Source: Sedimentibacter sp. zth1
GTDB lineage: Bacteria; Bacillota; Clostridia; Tissierellales; Sedimentibacteraceae
Assembly: GCF_017352195.1 (NCBI RefSeq)
Contig: NZ_CP071445.1
Coordinates: 2,976,001 to 3,040,000, forward strand
Direction: 5' to 3'
Length of the DNA stretch: 64,000 nucleotides
Part shown: positions 9,119-34,520 of the stretch, in pieces
Layout of the letters: every line of letters starts with the position of its first letter
How positions within the stretch are numbered: the first letter of the stretch is position 1
Notes under the pieces: model-generated
What the model saw: the letters and a program-made list of their open reading frames with translations, nothing else
The model's database searches: none
What the model was told of the DNA's origin: nothing
Translations under genes and position numbers: made by a program

Positions 9119-9946
9119 TCAATTTTTTTTTGATATTAGATTATTGTAAGTAACAACCTCATATTCATTGTTATGCTTTAAAATAGTATCAATTATTCGC
9201 TTGAATTTTTCTATACTACAGTAATTAGAGTTCCTGTTATAATTGTTATCATCAAGCCTATCAAACATAACTATACAGAAATAATTATTTTTTTTGCATC
9301 TGCTAATGAATTCTTCAAATTGTTCTACAGTTGTTGAATTGTTGATATTAATAACTTTTAAATGACAGTATTCTATTTCTCCATCCATCAAAATTATATT
9401 ATCAGATGTTTTAATACTACAAAAATTATTTTCCTTTAGCAATTTAATTAAGTAGGGATTAACCTCACCATATGGAATTATGACTGAATCACTTGCAAAA
9501 TCTAAATAGTGTGTATCCATATATTTTTTTGCTTTTATTATATCGCTAATCAGTTCATCACATTTAAAGTACATATTCTTCTCATGACTGTATGTTTGGT
9601 TTAGAATATTCCAACCCTTTATGTATAAGCTTGAAAGTTCAGAGTAATTCATGTAGCCATCTTCGTTCTCTAAAGAAGGTATAAACCCTACATTTGCAAT
9701 CAGATTATTATTTTCGATGATTGGAAAAGCTTTATCATATATGGTTTTATAGCCACCACTGAATAATATTGCAATTTTTGATTTATTAGTTTTGCTGTCT
9801 ATTACTTTTAAATCAGTTTTATTTATTGATAGTATAATTCTTGTTTTATCAATATTATCATATATTAATTTATAAGTATTTGGATAGAATAAACTTACTA
9901 TAACAAATGATGTTATAAGTAATTTAATATTTTTAAACTTAAACAT
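9119..9946 (-). CDS. Degenerate polysaccharide-deacetylase (NodB-like) membrane-anchored protein
   Basis: This 275-residue protein has one N-terminal membrane segment (residues about 8-24). The rest follows the NodB fold pattern: IAILFSGGYKTIYDKAFPII aligns with the usual TFDDG strand, and ILNQTYSHEKNM with the H-T-x-S-H metal motif, of which only the last His is clearly kept. The catalytic Asp pair is replaced by Ser-Gly, so it is probably not an active deacetylase and may bind glycan. It is the last gene of a six-gene operon, 14 bp after the CotH-like gene, with a good AGAGGAG site. Confidence 0.65.
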   Translation of the reverse strand: MFKFKNIKLLITSFVIVSLFYPNTYKLIYDNIDKTRIILSINKTDLKVIDSKTNKSKIAILFSGGYKTIYDKAFPIIENNNLIANVGFIPSLENEDGYMNYSELSSLYIKGWNILNQTYSHEKNMYFKCDELISDIIKAKKYMDTHYLDFASDSVIIPYGEVNPYLIKLLKENNFCSIKTSDNIILMDGEIEYCHLKVININNSTTVEQFEEFISRCKKNNYFCIVMFDRLDDNNYNRNSNYCSIEKFKRIIDTILKHNNEYEVVTYNNLISKKN

Positions 9947-9960
9947 TTAGTCTCCTCTGC

Positions 9961-12345
9961 TTAGTTTGTTTTTTTAAAATAGCAATTGAAATTAACATCT
10001 TGACTTGGTTTTATAACAAAAACTTCATTAACTGACGTATAATCACCGTCCCAGCATGAAAATTCAAATCCTTCATCTGCAATAGCTTTTAGCGTAATTT
10101 CCATATCTTTAAAATAAATACCTTCAAAATTATTAGAAGATAAATCTACATTCACACCATTGATTTCTACTTTACCTCCTTTGGTAGAGTAAAGGCTTAA
10201 ATTATAAATTCCACTTAGCTTAAAGTAGTCAATTATATGATTTCGAACATACATAGGCCTACTTTTCACAAAATCCTTGAGTATACTTATTTGGTTATAC
10301 CATAAATTTATATTACCCTTGAAAATTTGCCAAACATTAATATGCTCCTGAACATATGGCTCGTAAATATCAGCAAACTTATTTATACTATCTAACACAT
10401 TATCCTCTTTATAGATTGTATTTAGTCTGTCTGCAAAAGTATTTATAAATTGGGTTTTAAATTTATCATTATCTAATAATTTTCTAAAAATTAATGTTGA
10501 CCAATTAGGATTAGGCCATTCAGTTTTTGTTTCATCTGTTGCAAATGATATCATATCAAAATCATATTGAGGTGTTGTGCTTGTATGAAGTCCCAAGCTA
10601 TAATCAGTGTCATACAATAAATATCTCCATCTACCGTCATGCCCATACGAAGCATCTTCTACATAGCCTTCGGTACGTTTTCTCCATACCTTAACATTGT
10701 TTCCTGGCCAGTCTCTGTTAGCACAATATATTTGTAGTATATAGTACTCTATAAAATTATCTATATCTAAAAATCTAATTATATAATTGTAGTTAGCTTC
10801 TTTTGACATGTCATTAGCTTTAATAAAATTGTACATTTTATTAAAATACATTTCATCGCCAGGAAATCCTTCGTTTATTTCAGTGCCAGTAACATCAGTA
10901 GGATTTTTAAGTATAACAATATCATCATATTCAATTCCATAATAGGATTTAAAGTATTGATTGTTGTATGCCTCTTTTATACTGTGAATACCCATAAAAA
11001 TTCCGTTTAGAAATAGTATACATGTTTGAGCTTCTTGTTTTTGTATATTTAAATTAGAAGGTACAAGACTTTGATTTAAATCGTCTCTAAATAATGCTCC
11101 ATTTGAATCTGATGATGGAGTTCTTAAAACAAGTTTATTTAGTTTAATGTCTTTATTTCCTAGATAGTTTAAAGAAAAATAATCATTAGCATCATAGCAA
11201 TCTCTTGCATAGCAGGCTAGTGATTTTATTGAATTTTCTCTGGAGTATCCACCAAATACGCGTATGCCAATTCCTTGATTGGTATAAGGCTGTGATTTAT
11301 ATTTAAATATCTCTATGTTTGCTTTCCTTTCCCATTTTCGTCCTTCTTGTGTATAATTTGCTGGAATAACATTTGTTAATAATTTTGAGCCGTTTTTAAG
11401 CCACTCATCATAAACCTCTCCTTTAACCAATATACCAGTTTTATAATCATATAAGTTTTTATTATTACTAACTATTGATACAATTGGTATTGAACTATTA
11501 TAGTAATTATTGTTTTGTACAAAGTAGCTATTAGTTACAATATCACTCGAAGAAAAATCATCACAGAATGCTTTTGCTCTTACGATGGTTAACATATTTT
11601 CTTTTTCTTCTATTAATATTGGAGCAGTGTATTTAATAGAGCTAGTAGTAGGGTCTGTACCATCTAAGGTGTAATATATTGAAGCACATTTATTTATTGT
11701 AGATAGCTCCAAATTAAATTGTGAATCATAACACCCTCCCTTATGCGAAAAAAAAGGCTTTTCAAGCTTTGAACCTGGGAAATAATTTAAAAGTGGATTG
11801 ATGGTATTGCTAGAATTAAGTGTACCACCTTCAAATACAAATATATTTTCTGAACCATCAGGCTGTCTGCCATATGAAATATTTTCATCAGTATTTTGTA
11901 TAAGCATTATATTAGACCATGAACTGTTATTTGAACTAAGTATGAGTGACTTATCCTTATTTATATCTATTTTGAAATTGGTGTGAAGGTTATCAGTATC
12001 AGAGGTTAAATTTTTTCCTGATAACCATACTGTTAAATATGAATTAGGTTCTATATATACTTTTGGAAAAACCCACTTATATAAATTTTTGTTGTTATTT
12101 GACAATCCGAAATTTTCTAAATTTATTTTATCTTTAGAGTTGTTAAAAATCTCTACCCAGTTTTCATAGTATCCATAGCTGTCACAGTAACAGTTCTTAT
12201 TGTTAGACATTATTTCATTTATACATAAAATATTTGTATAATCAATTCCTTTATTACTTAAAATGTCAATATCTATAAATATGGCAGCTATCAATATTAT
12301 AAATAATATAAAAAATACGATTTTTTTTATTAAAAGTTTATTCAT
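9961..12345 (-). CDS. CotH-kinase family surface protein (LTD, chitobiase-C, CotH, InlB-B-like)
   Basis: A 794-residue membrane-anchored modular protein. Residues about 5-28 are a membrane helix. Next come a lamin-tail domain (LCINEIMSNNKNCYC, WVEIFNNSKDKINL), a chitobiase/beta-hexosaminidase C-terminal module (SIYYTLDGTDPTTSS) and a CotH domain covering about residues 330-660 with FGGYSREN, ANRDWPGNN and LLYDTDYSLG. The C-terminal GGKVEINGV / GFEFSCWDGD segment looks like an InlB B-repeat. CotH of Bacillus is an atypical kinase phosphorylating spore-coat proteins; DTDYSLG would be the metal-binding loop. It belongs to the polysaccharide operon. Phosphorylation of a surface partner is inferred. 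Confidence 0.85.
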   Translation of the reverse strand: MNKLLIKKIVFFILFIILIAAIFIDIDILSNKGIDYTNILCINEIMSNNKNCYCDSYGYYENWVEIFNNSKDKINLENFGLSNNNKNLYKWVFPKVYIEPNSYLTVWLSGKNLTSDTDNLHTNFKIDINKDKSLILSSNNSSWSNIMLIQNTDENISYGRQPDGSENIFVFEGGTLNSSNTINPLLNYFPGSKLEKPFFSHKGGCYDSQFNLELSTINKCASIYYTLDGTDPTTSSIKYTAPILIEEKENMLTIVRAKAFCDDFSSSDIVTNSYFVQNNNYYNSSIPIVSIVSNNKNLYDYKTGILVKGEVYDEWLKNGSKLLTNVIPANYTQEGRKWERKANIEIFKYKSQPYTNQGIGIRVFGGYSRENSIKSLACYARDCYDANDYFSLNYLGNKDIKLNKLVLRTPSSDSNGALFRDDLNQSLVPSNLNIQKQEAQTCILFLNGIFMGIHSIKEAYNNQYFKSYYGIEYDDIVILKNPTDVTGTEINEGFPGDEMYFNKMYNFIKANDMSKEANYNYIIRFLDIDNFIEYYILQIYCANRDWPGNNVKVWRKRTEGYVEDASYGHDGRWRYLLYDTDYSLGLHTSTTPQYDFDMISFATDETKTEWPNPNWSTLIFRKLLDNDKFKTQFINTFADRLNTIYKEDNVLDSINKFADIYEPYVQEHINVWQIFKGNINLWYNQISILKDFVKSRPMYVRNHIIDYFKLSGIYNLSLYSTKGGKVEINGVNVDLSSNNFEGIYFKDMEITLKAIADEGFEFSCWDGDYTSVNEVFVIKPSQDVNFNCYFKKTN

Positions 12346-12369
12346 AGCTATTCACCCTATAATTATTTT

Positions 12370-13038
12370 TTAACCGCTAACCTCTCCATTGTAAGAAACA
12401 ATATGTACTTCAGTTATATCTTTGATGGTAAAAAAGTGTTCAATTAAATTATCTTTGTTTACCTGCTTTAAAGTCATCTCATAAGTAAGCTCTGTTGAAT
12501 CAAGACTAGTATTTTTCATACACATTTTGTTAGGTATTTTATAGTTTCTTAATACGTCTTGAATACATTCACACTTTAGATTATTTCCTTTTATTATTAG
12601 CAAATAACTATATGATGAATATGCTGTTTTGCTAAATAAAAATAATACAATTGCAATTATTATGCTTCCGATTATAGCTATCAAAAATGCTCCGCTTCCA
12701 GATGCGAGACCTATTGCAATTGCCCAAAACAAAAATGCAATATCTCGTGGTTCCTTAATTGCTGCTCTAAATCTGACAATAGACAATGCTCCTACCATAC
12801 CTAATGATATTGCCAAATTATTGCCTATAAGCATCATTACAAGTGATGATATGAGAGCAATCATAACAATCGTTAGATTAAAATTTTGTGAATATACAAC
12901 TGAACTATTAGTTTTTTTATATACCAAATATATAAAAAATGCTAAAATAACTGTAATAGAAAAGTTAAATATGATATTTTCAATAGTATACAATTTAGTG
13001 CCGTTAATAAGTAAATCAATTAAATTTTCTTTGTTCAT
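12370..13038 (-). CDS. DUF4956 membrane protein
   Basis: This 222-residue protein has four predicted helices in residues about 20-135 and a soluble C-terminal domain of about 85 residues. The conserved DUF4956 stretch is visible as GMVGALSIVRFRAAIKEPRD, which keeps the charged R-x-R and K-E-P-R-D residues at the membrane face. The molecular role of the family is unknown, but it is regularly found beside VTC-domain and CotH genes, as here. It lies 24 bp upstream of the CotH gene and 9 bp after the VTC gene, so the three are almost certainly co-translated. Confidence 0.88.
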   Translation of the reverse strand: MNKENLIDLLINGTKLYTIENIIFNFSITVILAFFIYLVYKKTNSSVVYSQNFNLTIVMIALISSLVMMLIGNNLAISLGMVGALSIVRFRAAIKEPRDIAFLFWAIAIGLASGSGAFLIAIIGSIIIAIVLFLFSKTAYSSYSYLLIIKGNNLKCECIQDVLRNYKIPNKMCMKNTSLDSTELTYEMTLKQVNKDNLIEHFFTIKDITEVHIVSYNGEVSG

Positions 13039-13047
13039 TTTTTTCTC

Positions 13048-13755
13048 CTATTTTTTATTTGTTTTTCTAGCAATGCAGTATTTGCTGATTGATTCTCGCT
13101 GTAAAGTATATTTTGATAATATTTTTTGTATAAAGTTTGGTAATGTGTTGTTAAATTTCACTTCTAATATATGAGTATTGACATTTATGAGAGGATTCAT
13201 TATGATATTTTCATTGAATATATCATAATTATTGCAGGATGCTCTTATGTTTTTATCAATTGTAATTCTGATGTTTTCAAAATTTAACATAAATGCTTCT
13301 CTGTCGTAATCAATTGTAATTACTGGCTTGTACAACGCTTTCTGAAATAAATACAATACTTTTATTACGGTTGTTGAATTATATTTAAGCAGAATGGATG
13401 TGTGCCCATTAATTAATTTAGCAGCATCATTTCTTGTAATCAGGCAGGTTTCTTTTTGCATATAAGAGCCAAACTTATTTTTAATTTCTAATTTAACACT
13501 TGGTGAAGTAGTATCATACAGCCTTAAACGTACCTTTTTTCTAGAGGCTGTACCAATTTGTTTTTCGTAATAATCAATATTGTTAAATGTATCAAAATAT
13601 AAGCTTCTAATATAATAATCACCGTTTTTTTTGCTATTTAAATCCTTTTTCATACAATATGATAAAATTAAGGATAATTCATAAGCATCCTTTTTACTTA
13701 TATAATATTTGACTTCATGTCTGTAAATTTTCAAATAATTTGTCTTTTTATCCAT
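13048..13755 (-). CDS. VTC domain protein (polyphosphate-polymerase-like)
   Basis: A 235-residue soluble VTC/TTM-type tunnel domain. Characteristic strands are RHEVKYYISKKDA near the N-terminus, YYIRSLYFDT, RKKVRLRLYD, VKLEIKNKFG, ITIDYDREAF and ILEVKFNN. The alternating Lys/Arg and Glu residues are those that line the tunnel in the yeast polyphosphate polymerase VTC4. It could therefore synthesise or bind polyphosphate or another triphosphate. The start is set by GGAGG inside the end of the GT2 gene, an 8-bp overlap that suggests translational coupling. Confidence 0.87.
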   Translation of the reverse strand: MDKKTNYLKIYRHEVKYYISKKDAYELSLILSYCMKKDLNSKKNGDYYIRSLYFDTFNNIDYYEKQIGTASRKKVRLRLYDTTSPSVKLEIKNKFGSYMQKETCLITRNDAAKLINGHTSILLKYNSTTVIKVLYLFQKALYKPVITIDYDREAFMLNFENIRITIDKNIRASCNNYDIFNENIIMNPLINVNTHILEVKFNNTLPNFIQKILSKYTLQRESISKYCIARKTNKK

Positions 13756-15064
13756 TGTATCCTCCAGATTGAATTTTTTTTCTCAAGATATACTTGTTAT
13801 TTGTTCTTTTAATTTTATTCCAAGACCTAAATTTCAAACAGTATGAGATACTACCGTAGATAAAAAAGTAAATATACATAAACCTAAACAAAAGCATATC
13901 AATTAAAATAATAAATATATAATTTTTGAATTTTATGCTAGATACATATTTTTTAGCCTTATAAAGTGCAATAATTGAATAAATGTAATTGAAAATCAAC
14001 AAAAGTAAAATATAATATAATAAATCTAAGTTTCCATTTGTAACTAGTTTAATGCTTATCAAATATAAATTTATAAACAAAGCTATAATAGCTATTGAAT
14101 TTATAGTAATAGCATCGAAAAAAATAAAAAAGCATACATTGGATTTTATTAAATTTCTAAAAATAAATTTTCTGTTTTTTATTACAGAATCTATAAACCC
14201 TTTTTGCCATCTTATTCTTTGAGCAGATAAATCACGTAATTTTTCTGGACATTCTGTATAGCAAATAGCATTGTCGTTGTATATGATTTTTTTATTGTTT
14301 TGATAAGCATATTGCTGAATTCTTAAGGTTAAGTCTATATCCTCTCCCAAACCACTATTAAAACATCCGATTTCTTCTAATACAGTTCTTTTAAATACTC
14401 CAAAAGCACCAGAAATTATAGCTAAAGCATTATTATAGGCCAAAGAACTCTTGTAAACATAGAACCCCTTTATATAGTCAAGACTTTGCAAAAGTATAAG
14501 CAAACTTGGTTTCTTTTGAAGCTTAAATACTTGCATAATATGTATTGCTCCGCCCGAAGCAATAACATTTTTATCAGTAAATGTCATACTCATAATTTTG
14601 AGGGTATCACTTTTTAAAACACAATCTCCGTCCATTGTTAAAATTAATTCGCTATCGCTCAGAGAAATTGCTTTGTTTAAGCTATTTGCTTTGCCAGTAT
14701 TATACTTGTCAATTACCGTTATATGGCTATATTTTACTGATTTTGATATGCTTTTTATAGAATTATCTAGCTTAACATAATTTGTATTGATTTTAGCTAA
14801 TTCTAATTCATTGTTAAGAATATTAAATGTTTCATCTGTAGAGCCATCATTAACAAATATTACATTAAAATTTTTATAATCTAGATTTTGCAAACCATCA
14901 ATAGTGTTCTTTATTATAGGAGCTTCATTATAGCATGGTATAATTATCGTTATGCTTTTTTGTGCATTATTATATTTGTAAATTATATTTTTGTGCTTAA
15001 CAGATGAAAGTATATGATATACCGAAAGAATAGTGCTTAAAAAAGTTATCAAAAAAAGTATCAA
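13748..15064 (-). CDS. Family 2 glycosyltransferase, membrane polysaccharide synthase
   Basis: A processive GT2 enzyme of about 438 residues. One N-terminal helix is followed by the GT-A domain: IIIPCYNEAPIIKNTI, VNDGSTDET, the D-x-D at TMDGDC, the acceptor motif GEDIDLTLRI and the processivity motif QRIRW. Two to four C-terminal helices follow. It resembles BcsA/IcaA/hyaluronan-type synthases that polymerise and export a polysaccharide. An upstream ATG at 15094 lies inside the GH16 gene without a ribosome site; I prefer the TTG at 15064, two bases after the GH16 stop and 7 bases after AGGAGG. Confidence 0.88.
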   Translation of the reverse strand: MILFLITFLSTILSVYHILSSVKHKNIIYKYNNAQKSITIIIPCYNEAPIIKNTIDGLQNLDYKNFNVIFVNDGSTDETFNILNNELELAKINTNYVKLDNSIKSISKSVKYSHITVIDKYNTGKANSLNKAISLSDSELILTMDGDCVLKSDTLKIMSMTFTDKNVIASGGAIHIMQVFKLQKKPSLLILLQSLDYIKGFYVYKSSLAYNNALAIISGAFGVFKRTVLEEIGCFNSGLGEDIDLTLRIQQYAYQNNKKIIYNDNAICYTECPEKLRDLSAQRIRWQKGFIDSVIKNRKFIFRNLIKSNVCFFIFFDAITINSIAIIALFINLYLISIKLVTNGNLDLLYYILLLLIFNYIYSIIALYKAKKYVSSIKFKNYIFIILIDMLLFRFMYIYFFIYGSISYCLKFRSWNKIKRTNNKYILRKKIQSGGYNG

Positions 15065-15065
15065 A

Positions 15066-15905
15066 TCAATTCCTCCTAACTGTTGTAGTAGCATTTACTT
15101 TTATATTCGTAACATTGAAATAGCAAGGAAATATAGTTGATGAATCAGGATCCCCTGGCCAATTACCACCAATTGCTTGATTTATAATAATATACATATA
15201 ACTGTTGTAGACACCTGTATTAGTACTGAAAATCTTTTTATCATCAATAAACCATGTTAGGCTATCTTTTTGCCAGTCCAAAGAAATTTTATATGATGGT
15301 TTTGTACTAACTTCTTCCATGAAATAAGAACGATTTTGCTTTCCAAAAGTATCAATATAGTGATTAACCCCATAAAAAATATTAGGTTCACTTCCAATCA
15401 TCTCAAATATGTCAATTTCTGGTAGTGATTTATCATCTTTTGGCAGCATCCATATTGCAGGAAAAATGCCTTGCCCTTCACAAACCTCAATAGTAAATTC
15501 AAAAGTACCATATAAATATGCATAATTACTTTTGACCATTCCAGATGTATATTTTTTAGCTTCATAATCATTAATGAGTGATGTTATCTTTATACTTTCA
15601 TTTTCATAAATTACATTTGCTTTGCAGTAGCTTTGCAGTTCATTATTAGAGTTATCCGATTTTTCGATAACTCTCCACAGTTCTATTTTTGATTTTTTAT
15701 TAACGTAATTATCTGCAATATCATTTATATTTTCATAGATATGCTTATCTTCATAACAAATATCTGATGCTAAATTTAATTGAGAGCATGTGTTTTTTAA
15801 ATCAACTTGTTGCTTAGAATCGTTTAGTATGATGACAAGACTTATCCCACAAGTAATAAATATACTGATAAAAAAAATAACATATTTTACTTTCATCTTT
15901 ATCAC
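15066..15905 (-). CDS. Glycoside hydrolase family 16 (beta-glucanase-like), membrane-anchored or secreted
   Basis: A 279-residue protein with an N-terminal signal/anchor helix (residues about 4-25) and a GH16 domain. The catalytic E-x-D-x-x-E motif is intact in LPEIDIFEMIG, and flanking family strands are visible (YLYGTFEFTI, GIFPAIWMLP, DWQKDSLTWFIDDKKI). GH16 enzymes cut beta-1,3 or beta-1,3-1,4 glucans or related polymers; the exact bond cannot be read. It opens the six-gene operon, so it may trim or release the polymer made by the GT2 synthase encoded next. AAGGTGAT precedes the start. Confidence 0.9.
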   Translation of the reverse strand: MIKMKVKYVIFFISIFITCGISLVIILNDSKQQVDLKNTCSQLNLASDICYEDKHIYENINDIADNYVNKKSKIELWRVIEKSDNSNNELQSYCKANVIYENESIKITSLINDYEAKKYTSGMVKSNYAYLYGTFEFTIEVCEGQGIFPAIWMLPKDDKSLPEIDIFEMIGSEPNIFYGVNHYIDTFGKQNRSYFMEEVSTKPSYKISLDWQKDSLTWFIDDKKIFSTNTGVYNSYMYIIINQAIGGNWPGDPDSSTIFPCYFNVTNIKVNATTTVRRN

Positions 15906-15999: not shown

Positions 16000-16039
16000 A
16001 ATAAAAAATATATATAATATGTTAGCGATGATAAAAACT

Positions 16040-16246
16040 ACGATTTATAAATTTCTACAGAGAGCTGGTGGTTGGTGTGAATCAGTGAAACGTTAAATCT
16101 TTCCGCTTTTGGAGCTATCGATGAATAATCGAAGGCTGGTAACCTTTATTTTACCGTACGAGTGGTTAGTATGAATGCTAGCAATTTGGGTGGCAACACG
16201 GATTCCTTCGTCCCATGAATTATGGGGATGATAGGGATTTTTTTAT
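16040..16246 (+). promoter_or_regulatory. T-box leader of serS (serine)
   Basis: Stem I features are present (GAGAGCTGG, then GGTTGGTGTGAA), with a likely specifier codon TCC (Ser) at 16102-16104 followed by the usual purine. The T-box sequence is TTTGGGTGGCAACACGG (16185-16201). The terminator stem (about 16202-16216 with 16222-16238) is followed by a T-run. Uncharged tRNA-Ser is expected to stabilise the antiterminator and raise serS expression. Confidence 0.93.
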
Positions 16247-16305: not shown

Positions 16306-17583
16306 ATGTTAGATTTAAGATTTGTAAGAGAAAATTCAGAAGTAGTTAAACAAAATATAATGAATAAGTTTCAAAACAGTAAGTTGCCATTAGTTGATGA
16401 GGTTATTGCATTGGACAAGGAAAGTAGAGAAACTAAACAAAAAGCCGATGGATTAAGAGCTAATAGAAATAAATTTTCTAAACAAATTGGTGCATTGATG
16501 GGCCAAGGTAAAAAAGAAGAAGCAGAAGAAATGAAAAAACGTGTAACAGCAGCTGCAGAGGAATTATCTTCTTTAGAAGCAAGAGAAGAGGAATTACAAG
16601 ATGAAATCAAAAAAAGAATGATGATTATACCAAATATTATTGATACAAGTGTTCCAATAGGAAAGGATGATAGTCAAAATGTAGAAATAGAAAAATTTGG
16701 TGAGCCAGTAGTTCCTAATTTTGATGTTCCTTATCACGCTGACATAATGTCAAAATTTAATGGACTAGATTTAGATGGTGCTAGAAAAGTTGCAGGTAAT
16801 GGGTTCTATTATCTAATGGGAGATATTGCAAGATTACACTCAGCTATTATAACTTATGCAAGGGACTTTATGATAAATAAAGGATTCACATACTGTATTC
16901 CACCTTTTATGATTAGAAGTGATGTTGTTACAGGTGTTATGAGCTTTGCTGAAATGGATTCTATGATGTACAAGATTGAAGGCGAAGATTTATATTTAAT
17001 TGGTACAAGTGAACACTCTATGATAGGTAAATTCATAGACACAATAATTTCAGAAGATTCTTTACCTCAAGCATTAACAAGTTATTCTCCATGTTTTAGA
17101 AAAGAAAAGGGTGCTCATGGAATTGAGGAAAGAGGAGTTTATAGAATACATCAATTTGAGAAACAAGAGATGGTAGTTGTTTGTAAACCAGAAGAAAGCA
17201 AAGAATGGTTTGAAAAAATGTGGAAATATACAGTAGAATTATTCCGTTCTTTAGACATACCTGTAAGAACGCTTGAGTGTTGTTCTGGAGATTTAGCAGA
17301 TTTAAAAGTTAAATCTATAGATGTTGAGGCATGGTCTCCAAGACAGAAGAAATACTTTGAGATTGGAAGTTGCTCAAATTTAGGAGATGCACAAGCAAGA
17401 AGATTAAAAATTCGTGTAAGTGGTGAAAATGGTAAGTATTTTGCTCATACACTAAACAATACAGTTGTTGCTCCACCAAGAATGTTGATTGCATTTTTAG
17501 AAAACAATTTGAATGAAGATGGCACAATAAATATACCAAAAGCGTTACAACAATACATGGGTGGAATGACAAAAATACAATAA
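16306..17583 (+). CDS. serS: Serine--tRNA ligase
   Basis: A 425-residue class II synthetase of standard length. The N-terminal coiled-coil arm that binds tRNA-Ser (residues about 30-100) is followed by the catalytic domain. Motif 2 is seen in SPCFRKEKGAHGIEERGVYR with the ATP-binding Arg, and motif 3 ends in NTVVAPPRMLIAFLENN. It charges tRNA-Ser (and tRNA-Sec if present). The start ATG follows AAGGAG and the gene is controlled by the T-box leader just upstream. Confidence 0.97.
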   Translation: MLDLRFVRENSEVVKQNIMNKFQNSKLPLVDEVIALDKESRETKQKADGLRANRNKFSKQIGALMGQGKKEEAEEMKKRVTAAAEELSSLEAREEELQDEIKKRMMIIPNIIDTSVPIGKDDSQNVEIEKFGEPVVPNFDVPYHADIMSKFNGLDLDGARKVAGNGFYYLMGDIARLHSAIITYARDFMINKGFTYCIPPFMIRSDVVTGVMSFAEMDSMMYKIEGEDLYLIGTSEHSMIGKFIDTIISEDSLPQALTSYSPCFRKEKGAHGIEERGVYRIHQFEKQEMVVVCKPEESKEWFEKMWKYTVELFRSLDIPVRTLECCSGDLADLKVKSIDVEAWSPRQKKYFEIGSCSNLGDAQARRLKIRVSGENGKYFAHTLNNTVVAPPRMLIAFLENNLNEDGTINIPKALQQYMGGMTKIQ

Positions 17584-34256: not shown

Positions 34257-34520
34257 TTGACAAAAATATTTAGCTAATATACAATTACATCATAATATAA
34301 AGGATGATGATTAGGACTATTAGATATACAAGGATTAAAGAGAGAAAGCTATTGGTGAAAAGCTTTTATCCAAATATATATTGAACCTACCTAGGAGTTT
34401 TTGGGGATAAACCCAAACGGCACAAACCGTTATTTGTTCGAGAGATTGCAAACTAAAAAATTGCAATAATAAGAGTGGTACCGCGGAAATCCGTCTCTAA
34501 AAATTTAGAGGCGGTTTATT
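34257..34520 (+). promoter_or_regulatory. Promoter and T-box leader of proS (proline)
   Basis: Promoter TTGACA (34257-34262), 17 bp, TACAAT (34280-34285). The leader shows stem I, a likely specifier CCT (Pro) at 34386-34388 (a second CCT at 34390-34392 is possible) followed by a purine, the T-box core GAGTGGTACCGCGG (about 34473-34486) and a terminator stem (AATCCGTCTCTAAA with TTTAGAGGCGGTTT). Uncharged tRNA-Pro should relieve termination. Confidence 0.92.

Follow-up and report, generated by a model that had tools for sequence, protein, structure and literature searches.

A VTC–DUF4956 gene pair in a Sedimentibacter polysaccharide operon: a candidate polyphosphate polymerase with its own membrane partner

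Introduction

Why does a gene for a polyphosphate polymerase-like protein stand in the middle of a polysaccharide operon? The question is raised by a stretch of 64,000 nucleotides from Sedimentibacter sp. zth1 (NZ_CP071445.1, positions 2,976,001–3,040,000 of the forward strand), here called the window, within which all positions are counted. At 9119–15905 its minus strand carries six tightly packed genes, encoding in order of transcription a GH16 glycoside hydrolase, a GT2 polysaccharide synthase, a VTC-domain protein, a DUF4956 membrane protein, a CotH protein and a NodB-like protein. The same six genes had been described in an earlier note made from the sequence; all of the open reading frames (ORFs) were recovered, and their Pfam identities agree with those given there.

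The explanation favoured here, to which we give about an even chance, is that a polyphosphate polymerase, the VTC protein, works with a membrane partner of its own, which is probably an exporter, and that the two serve a surface protein and are joined in this genome to a GT2 operon.

Results

The VTC protein scored 130.9 bits against PF09359, for which the curated cut-off is 23. The domain, at residues 12–231, is the sole Pfam match of the 235-residue protein, and an SPX domain and fused membrane helices are absent. A phmmer search with the single protein found no solved structure and an alignment of relatives was needed; the profile built from 85 relatives retrieved yeast Vtc4 from the Protein Data Bank (PDB) at 1.2e-21. 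The alignments used throughout comprised 85 of 92 VTC, 82 of 90 DUF4956 and 20 of 26 MgtC sequences, and 39 of 119 CotH stretches together with the CotH of the window. Residues K16, R76, R78, E90, K92, K101, R152, R163, E198 and K200 are invariant in all 85 VTC sequences and K225 is present in 84, the eleven kept positions aligning with Vtc4 K200, R264, R266, E279, K281, K294, R361, R373, E426, K428 and K458. We take the aligned positions other than R264, R266 and E426 to be active-site residues. R264, R266 and E426 were replaced in a published Vtc4 variant (PMC9911596). K74 is also invariant, yet no lysine lies opposite it in Vtc4. The pairing of E198, K200 and K225 with E426, K428 and K458 was obtained only through a low-scoring second stretch of the profile alignment; the fold alignment spans this part too. 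The tunnel lysines and arginines, on which the earlier note had made its reading depend, are retained across the 85-sequence alignment.

A structural model of the VTC protein gave a mean predicted local distance difference test score (pLDDT) of 95.2, and its closest fold match was Vtc4 (PDB id. 3g3r) with a Z score of 19.8 and a root-mean-square deviation of 2.6 over 219 residues. Vtc2 and Vtc3 followed at Z 18.8 and the CYTH-type enzymes at 16.8 and lower. The fold is common to the CYTH/TTM enzymes (2gfg, Z 16.8; AtTTM3, Z 15.3) and fold alone shows no function, so the protein might be some other triphosphate-tunnel enzyme, such as an inorganic triphosphatase, a cyclase or a phosphotransferase acting on a glycan precursor. 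We consider this improbable, as no solved structure is closer than Vtc4 and no solved sequence scores better, and because the Vtc4 residues in the alignment are retained, the K294 equivalent and the C-terminal SKY among them, in this comparison with Vtc4 alone. Judged by sequence and model, the protein is a convincing candidate polyphosphate-polymerase domain, which would be expected to make polyphosphate from ATP. No hydrophobic segment was found in the first 70 residues of any of the 93 VTC ORFs, that of the window included.

The coupling between VTC and DUF4956 was examined in 398 genomes of the phylum, with 14 control genomes searched alongside. VTC was found in 69 genomes and DUF4956 in 70; all 69 VTC genomes have DUF4956 and, conversely, 69 of the 70 DUF4956 genomes have VTC (Fisher p 2.6e-77, with no correction for kinship; counted by genus, each search matched 52 of 271). 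Both also matched in the same 3 of the 14 controls. The sole DUF4956 genome lacking VTC, G434 (C21:2212–3441), carries a CotH match interrupted by an internal stop and may therefore represent a decayed or decaying locus.

Gene neighbourhoods were compared at 180 loci including the window, using six-frame searches and counting genes as near when on the same strand unless either strand is stated. The 84 VTC places in the 398 genomes are represented by 80 phylum loci (L070–L149), after removal of the window itself, two fragments merged with neighbours and one short unfetched fragment. A further 80 named loci were selected by similarity to 12 chosen VTC sequences via one peptide pattern. DUF4956 lies within 700 bp of VTC at 76 of the 80 phylum loci, at all 20 in the relatives' set, of which the window is one, and at 76 of the 80 named loci. 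Among the eight loci failing this rule, three named loci and L125 have DUF4956 farther off on the same strand, and L138 begins near a contig end. An ORF-based count was lower (69 of 77 loci, with VTC uncalled at 3), some genes having been masked by the simple gene caller, and a third count from Pfam places put DUF4956 within 600 bp of VTC at 77 of 84 places, fragments included.

The pair was also present in 10 of 10 named records of other phyla, which are metagenome bins whose labels may be wrong. These were chosen by title (Spirochaetales, Campylobacterota, Chloroflexi, Nanoarchaeota, Nanohalarchaeota, Elusimicrobiaceae and proteobacteria), excluding one titled Tenericutes and those titled only 'bacterium'. 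Pairwise distances of VTC and DUF4956 correlated with r = 0.93 over 86 loci, whereas a nearby response regulator compared with VTC over 39 loci gave 0.30; this is supporting evidence only, because co-inheritance in one operon can by itself produce a high r and the regulator family is rich in paralogs. At 38 of the 80 phylum loci a histidine kinase, often accompanied by a response regulator, is encoded no more than 4 kb from VTC (either strand counted) and may control the module.

The genome of Sedimentibacter sp. zth1 contains one VTC and one CotH, and no match to PPK1, PPK2 or Ppx/GppA was found in it at an E-value of 0.001. PPK1 occurs in 60 of the 398 sampled genomes, 20 of which also have VTC, and 49 of the 69 VTC genomes gave no PPK1 match. 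The idea that VTC substitutes for PPK1 was rejected, since 20 of the 69 VTC genomes carry both genes and their association is weakly positive (odds ratio 2.9, p 0.0013).

The DUF4956 model (pLDDT 87.8) consists of mostly hydrophobic helices to residue 139 followed by a C-terminal beta-alpha-beta domain. This domain matched the C-terminal domains of MgtC (7qa5, 2lqj) with a Z score of 9.9, tied with many other ACT/ferredoxin-like folds. Profile comparison by hhalign with 20 MgtC sequences from relatives gave an E-value of 8.9e-12 over 196 columns that include both the membrane and the C-terminal domains; DUF4956 is therefore a membrane protein of a divergent MgtC-like kind, ending in an ACT-like domain. 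It falls under both curated MgtC cut-offs (23.8 bits against 31.4, and 36.4 against 214). The E-R, R-P-A-G and R-T residues of ER....RPAGxRT are invariant in the 20 MgtC sequences, and this segment is missing from the consensus of DUF4956, where R89 and R91 are invariant instead, in a loop that, judged by the order of the helices, probably faces the cytosol. For the membrane part Foldseek found no solved structure at an E-value of 0.001 or better, the VIA rows spanning residues 141–221 only. The DUF4956 profile searched against the PDB at E-values up to 1 matched four unrelated chains and no Vtc subunit, a shared fold being still possible. The streptococcal homolog SIR_1592 has likewise been described as MgtC plus ACT (PMC12345266). 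MgtC matches are the more widespread among 61 relatives, occurring in 46, with VTC in 19.

These features raise the alternative that DUF4956 is a regulator in the manner of MgtC, sensing phosphate or ATP status through its ACT-like domain and controlling both VTC and the synthase, with polyphosphate kept as a cytosolic store. The full-length homology to MgtC and the neighbouring histidine kinases are in keeping with such a role, as is the report that deletion of DUF4956 in Streptococcus intermedius gave less aggregation and more Pel (PMC12345266). A cytosolic store needs no exported partner, yet CotH or Cthe_2159 accompanies VTC in nearly every genome (below), and the genome of the window has no Ppx/GppA match to draw on such a store. 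The MgtC signature is lost in DUF4956, with R89 and R91 invariant instead. We regard the regulator as a tentative alternative, unlikely on balance.

The third gene of the set is variable, its product being usually a putatively exported protein, kinase-like or carbohydrate-binding. Within 4 kb of VTC at the 80 phylum loci, CotH was found at 48 and Cthe_2159 at 23, both at 1 and neither at 10. CotH is present anywhere in the genome in 52 of the 69 VTC genomes, and VTC in 52 of the 59 CotH genomes. The 17 VTC genomes that lack CotH have a Cthe_2159 cluster in 13 fetched loci and in one more by Pfam (L120), so that one or other protein occurs in 66 of 69 VTC genomes (52 with CotH, and a further 14 whose fetched locus, up to 20 kb long, holds Cthe_2159); neither was found in G081, G401 and G449. 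An N-terminal hydrophobic segment was detected in 59 of 62 CotH ORFs at these loci and in 16 of 27 Cthe_2159 ORFs. The third gene product is thus predicted to be mostly exported, less surely for Cthe_2159 because of its lower share of such segments. As two different proteins alternate in this position, a shared role at the outer face is argued for rather than a kinase step as such. At two loci, L163 (1938–4613) and L165 (4528–7986), CotH is joined to right-handed beta-helix regions beside VTC; the records bear the titles Nanoarchaeota and Elusimicrobiaceae, and the fusions hint that the CotH and Cthe_2159 forms are linked.

The CotH of the window scored 130.3 bits against a cut-off of 23.8, and the CotH profile retrieved the solved CotH 5jd9 at 3.9e-50. 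Two catalytic aspartate columns are kept in 40 of 40 sequences and correspond by alignment to D545 and D579 in the window; the pair was equated with D228 and D251 of Bacillus subtilis through the motif and a 23-residue spacing in the 5jd9 alignment. The D228Q and D251A variants of CotH are inactive (PMC7821199). A conserved glutamate at alignment column 115 seemed to be absent from the window CotH, in which an E stands six residues after the second Gly of NGIFMGIHSIKE; read by eye against the consensus GLYLxVE, the gap probably reflects a four-residue shift in the MAFFT alignment. A more specific reading, in which VTC and DUF4956 form a polymerase-exporter and a surface-anchored CotH, which would be expected to meet hardly any extracellular ATP, takes the exported polyphosphate as donor to phosphorylate the matrix polysaccharide or its proteins, is in our view improbable.

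The relation of the module to polysaccharide synthases was assessed with a neighbourhood survey. All three genes stand together at 46 of the 80 phylum loci, and the recurrent VTC-DUF4956-CotH set put forward in the earlier note is borne out. The fixed coupling to GT2 and GH16 that was also suggested was rejected in this evenly drawn phylum sample: only 6 of the 80 VTC loci have a GT2 like that of the window on the same strand and no more than 8 kb away, as sought with a single profile that other glycosyltransferases may have escaped, and GH16 and NodB were found in that range at 0 of 80. By the criterion that the earlier note had set, the trio is therefore largely independent of the synthase, though it does stand beside several different ones, including GT2 of the window type, GT2 with HEAT-repeat and ~700-residue partners, and PelF/PelG; for this reason it looks like a movable module. 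PelG occurs within 8 kb of 2 of the 80 phylum VTC loci, and 44 of the 46 loci with the complete trio have no PelG in that range.

The 80 named loci included 24 with the GT2, ~700-residue and HEAT set, pel operons (nine loci with PelG), and three from Butyrivibrio with GT2 just upstream of VTC. Their overall GT2 share, 35 of 80, is biased upward because these loci were picked by similarity to the 12 VTC sequences. The gene set VTC-DUF4956-CotH-~700 residues-HEAT-GT2 is conserved in L159, L177, L186, L189 and others (24 of the 80 named), the ~700-residue protein of L159 having no Pfam match. At L126 (4739–7252) an MBOAT-DHHW acyltransferase-like protein lies between GT2 and VTC and recalls the proposed acetylation genes of ccsZABHI (PMC7710045).

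The earlier note had given the trio no assigned role, which is out of date. The genes are in print as accessory pel genes, and for two of the three a deletion phenotype is known from S. intermedius. The accessory genes listed for Gram-positive pel loci, those of streptococci and clostridia, include cotH, DUF4956, DUF4832 and a gene for a poly-phosphate polymerase, and regulation of Pel through phosphorylation was raised as one possibility (PMC7112168). In S. intermedius, deletion of CotH gave less aggregation and less Pel, and no change in either was reported for deletion of VTC (SIR_1593; PMC12345266). The same 2025 paper states, on an analysis whose scope is not evident from the available text, that the three-gene arrangement was not found outside the Pel locus; this is contradicted by the trios found outside Pel across the phylum.

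The Pel results suggest another explanation, by which the trio is a regulatory appendage of an exopolysaccharide synthase, with CotH phosphorylating the synthase or matrix proteins to set output and VTC incidental. The proposal that CotH regulates Pel by phosphorylation and the contrast between the CotH and VTC deletions are both in line with it. The trio loci without PelG within 8 kb and the scarcity of window-like GT2 within 8 kb of VTC speak against it, other glycosyltransferases not having been searched. VTC is also almost never missing where DUF4956 is present. This explanation appears doubtful, and we rate it as quite unlikely.

Within the operon (Table 1) the intergenic distances in transcription order are -29, -8, +9, +24 and +14 bp. 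All six genes occur together in the relatives' loci L064 and L065 and in L153, a record titled Ruminococcaceae bacterium UBA5396, so that, counting the window, the full set is present at 4 of the 180 loci; as the same six genes recur there, their order is not due to chance. The CotH gene of L065 is read as two ORFs, and loci ending at contig edges could conceal further six-gene sets.

Table 1. Genes and domains of the operon in the window, with the evidence for each assignment.
Feature	Position	Strand	Evidence
GH16 glycoside hydrolase, N-terminal hydrophobic anchor/signal	15066..15905	-	Pfam PF00722 2.5e-21; EIDIFE motif
Processive-type GT2 polysaccharide synthase, 448 aa, with QRIRW	13748..15094	-	Pfam PF00535 7.2e-25
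VTC-domain polyphosphate-polymerase-like protein, 235 aa	13048..13755	-	Pfam PF09359 7.1e-38
DUF4956, MgtC-like membrane protein, C-terminal ACT-like domain	12370..13038	-	Pfam PF16316 1.1e-13
Membrane-anchored, presumably extracellular LTD - CHB_HEX_C - CotH protein, 794 aa	9961..12345	-	PF08757 1.5e-37, PF13290, PF00932
CotH kinase-like domain, residues 361-700	10246..11265	-	Pfam alignment range
NodB/CE4-like protein, degenerate catalytic motifs	9119..9946	-	Pfam PF01522 (Polysacc_deac_1) 9.2e-08

The GTG start of GH16 at 15905 sits, as read by eye, within the Shine-Dalgarno-like AAAGGTGAT, so the ATG at 15896 is the more likely start. An N-terminal hydrophobic segment is present in 3 of 3 GH16 proteins from these loci, and we take the EIDIFE of the window protein to be the ExDxxE active-site pattern. 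Similarly, the QRIRW of the GT2 is presumably the motif of a processive-type synthase. The best NCBIfam match of this GT2 was PgaC_IcaA at 144.4 bits, and its assignment as a PgaC/IcaA poly-GlcNAc synthase equivalog is not supported, the score falling short of the 422.3-bit cut-off. The mixed-linkage glucan synthase RiGT2 (PMC10374906) and the clostridial cellulose synthase ccsZABHI (PMC7710045), compared by description only, are no more than leads, a PilZ domain being described for each and the window GT2 having no PilZ match.

The catalytic aspartate pair and metal-binding histidine of CE4 deacetylases lie in DDG and NHSYSH-type motifs. The NodB-like protein of the window has LFSGGY and NQTYSH where L064 and L065 have MFDDGW and NHSYSH, so that SGG replaces DDG, NQTYSH replaces NHSYSH, and neither the aspartate pair nor the metal histidine is retained. 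Because motifs kept by these two orthologs are lost, the protein in this genome is probably an inactive pseudo-deacetylase.

A scan for promoters and terminators gave 78 promoter-like sites against 59.9 in shuffled sequence and 0 terminator-like sites against 2.0, figures that carry little information. Two T-box leaders (Rfam RF00230) were identified on the plus strand, at 16019–16218 (98.4 bits) and 34298–34501 (123.4 bits). The first lies upstream of a gene at 16306, by the look of its sequence presumably a seryl-tRNA synthetase, and fills about half of the 400 bases separating that gene from the operon. A defence system was also considered and rejected, PADLOC giving no match for VTC, DUF4956 or CotH.

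Discussion

Among the closest known systems is the yeast VTC complex (Vtc1/Vtc3/Vtc4), which couples its polyphosphate polymerase to transit of the chain across the membrane (PMC9911596). The window protein shares with it the tunnel-enzyme domain, the active-site positions and the fold, and is likewise encoded with one dedicated membrane protein. The bacterial VTC differs in lacking SPX and fused helices, in having an MgtC-like partner and in the addition of a third, mostly exported, gene product. DUF4956 in turn resembles the MgtC/SapB family along its full length, with membrane helices followed by an ACT-like domain, but it lies below the curated cut-offs, is without the MgtC signature and is tied to VTC.

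Two published loci are also comparable. In pel loci the same three genes stand side by side next to a synthase (S. intermedius SIR_1592–1594; PMC12345266), whereas the synthase of the window is a GT2 accompanied by GH16 and a NodB-like protein, with no match to the PelA, PelF or PelG profiles in the first 30 kb (1–30000). NELoc-2 of Clostridium perfringens contains two pairs of VTC with genes labelled 'tubulin, FtsZ', together with CotH, a 685-residue protein, a HEAT protein and a chitin-synthase-like GT2 (PMC2879425). VTC, a 222–226-residue membrane protein, CotH and GT2 are thus found in one locus, whose order and lengths resemble L159; judged by position and length, the 'tubulin' genes are probably DUF4956. 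It differs from the window in that the GT2 is downstream with HEAT-repeat and ~700-residue proteins, and no GH16 or NodB appears in the published table.

On the explanation favoured here, the core is a two-gene unit: a cytosolic VTC polymerase would make polyphosphate from ATP at the membrane, where DUF4956 would take, pass or gate the chain, the two sharing the work like the head of Vtc4 and the membrane domain in yeast. The third gene product, CotH here and Cthe_2159 elsewhere, would work outside the membrane, either on the phosphate delivered there or together with it. The GT2/GH16 operon would supply the polymer modified in this organism, with GH16 as a trimming enzyme. Because the module shares an operon with a processive GT2 and GH16, the most likely product is a polysaccharide of the cell surface that is phosphorylated or associated with polyphosphate; the polymer might be phosphorylated or tethered through polyphosphate. 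From gene content, conservation and models we infer enzymatic activity, a physical VTC-DUF4956 complex, translocation through DUF4956, and the donor and substrate of CotH.

Several observations weigh against this explanation. A strict chain from VTC through DUF4956 to CotH predicts a phenotype for deletion of VTC, and the SIR_1593 result is therefore the strongest against such a chain; that study tested aggregation and Pel level, and a polyphosphate measurement was not seen in the available text (PMC12345266). In the full-text literature searched, which excludes most subscription journals and all preprints, none of the titles listed names an assay of a bacterial VTC, and no polyphosphate measurement for one was seen. 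Salmonella MgtC is described as acting on ATP synthase and PhoR and not as a conduit, and the ACT-like domain of DUF4956 is of a kind found in regulators. VTC is no general replacement for PPK1, as 20 of 69 VTC genomes have both, and just 16 of 27 Cthe_2159 ORFs have the hydrophobic segment. Finally, most sampled modules lie away from any synthase detected by the profiles used, and for that reason a role with polysaccharide need not be general.

If VTC and DUF4956 do form one machine, about one in six of the sampled genomes of the phylum (69 of 398) would possess a membrane-coupled route for polyphosphate. The loci outside Pel already widen the printed view of the trio as bound to Pel. On the same condition, these bacteria may carry polyphosphate as a surface polymer, DUF4956 would gain a role that can be tested directly, CotH would gain a context outside spores, and an extracellular kinase would have a source of phosphate.

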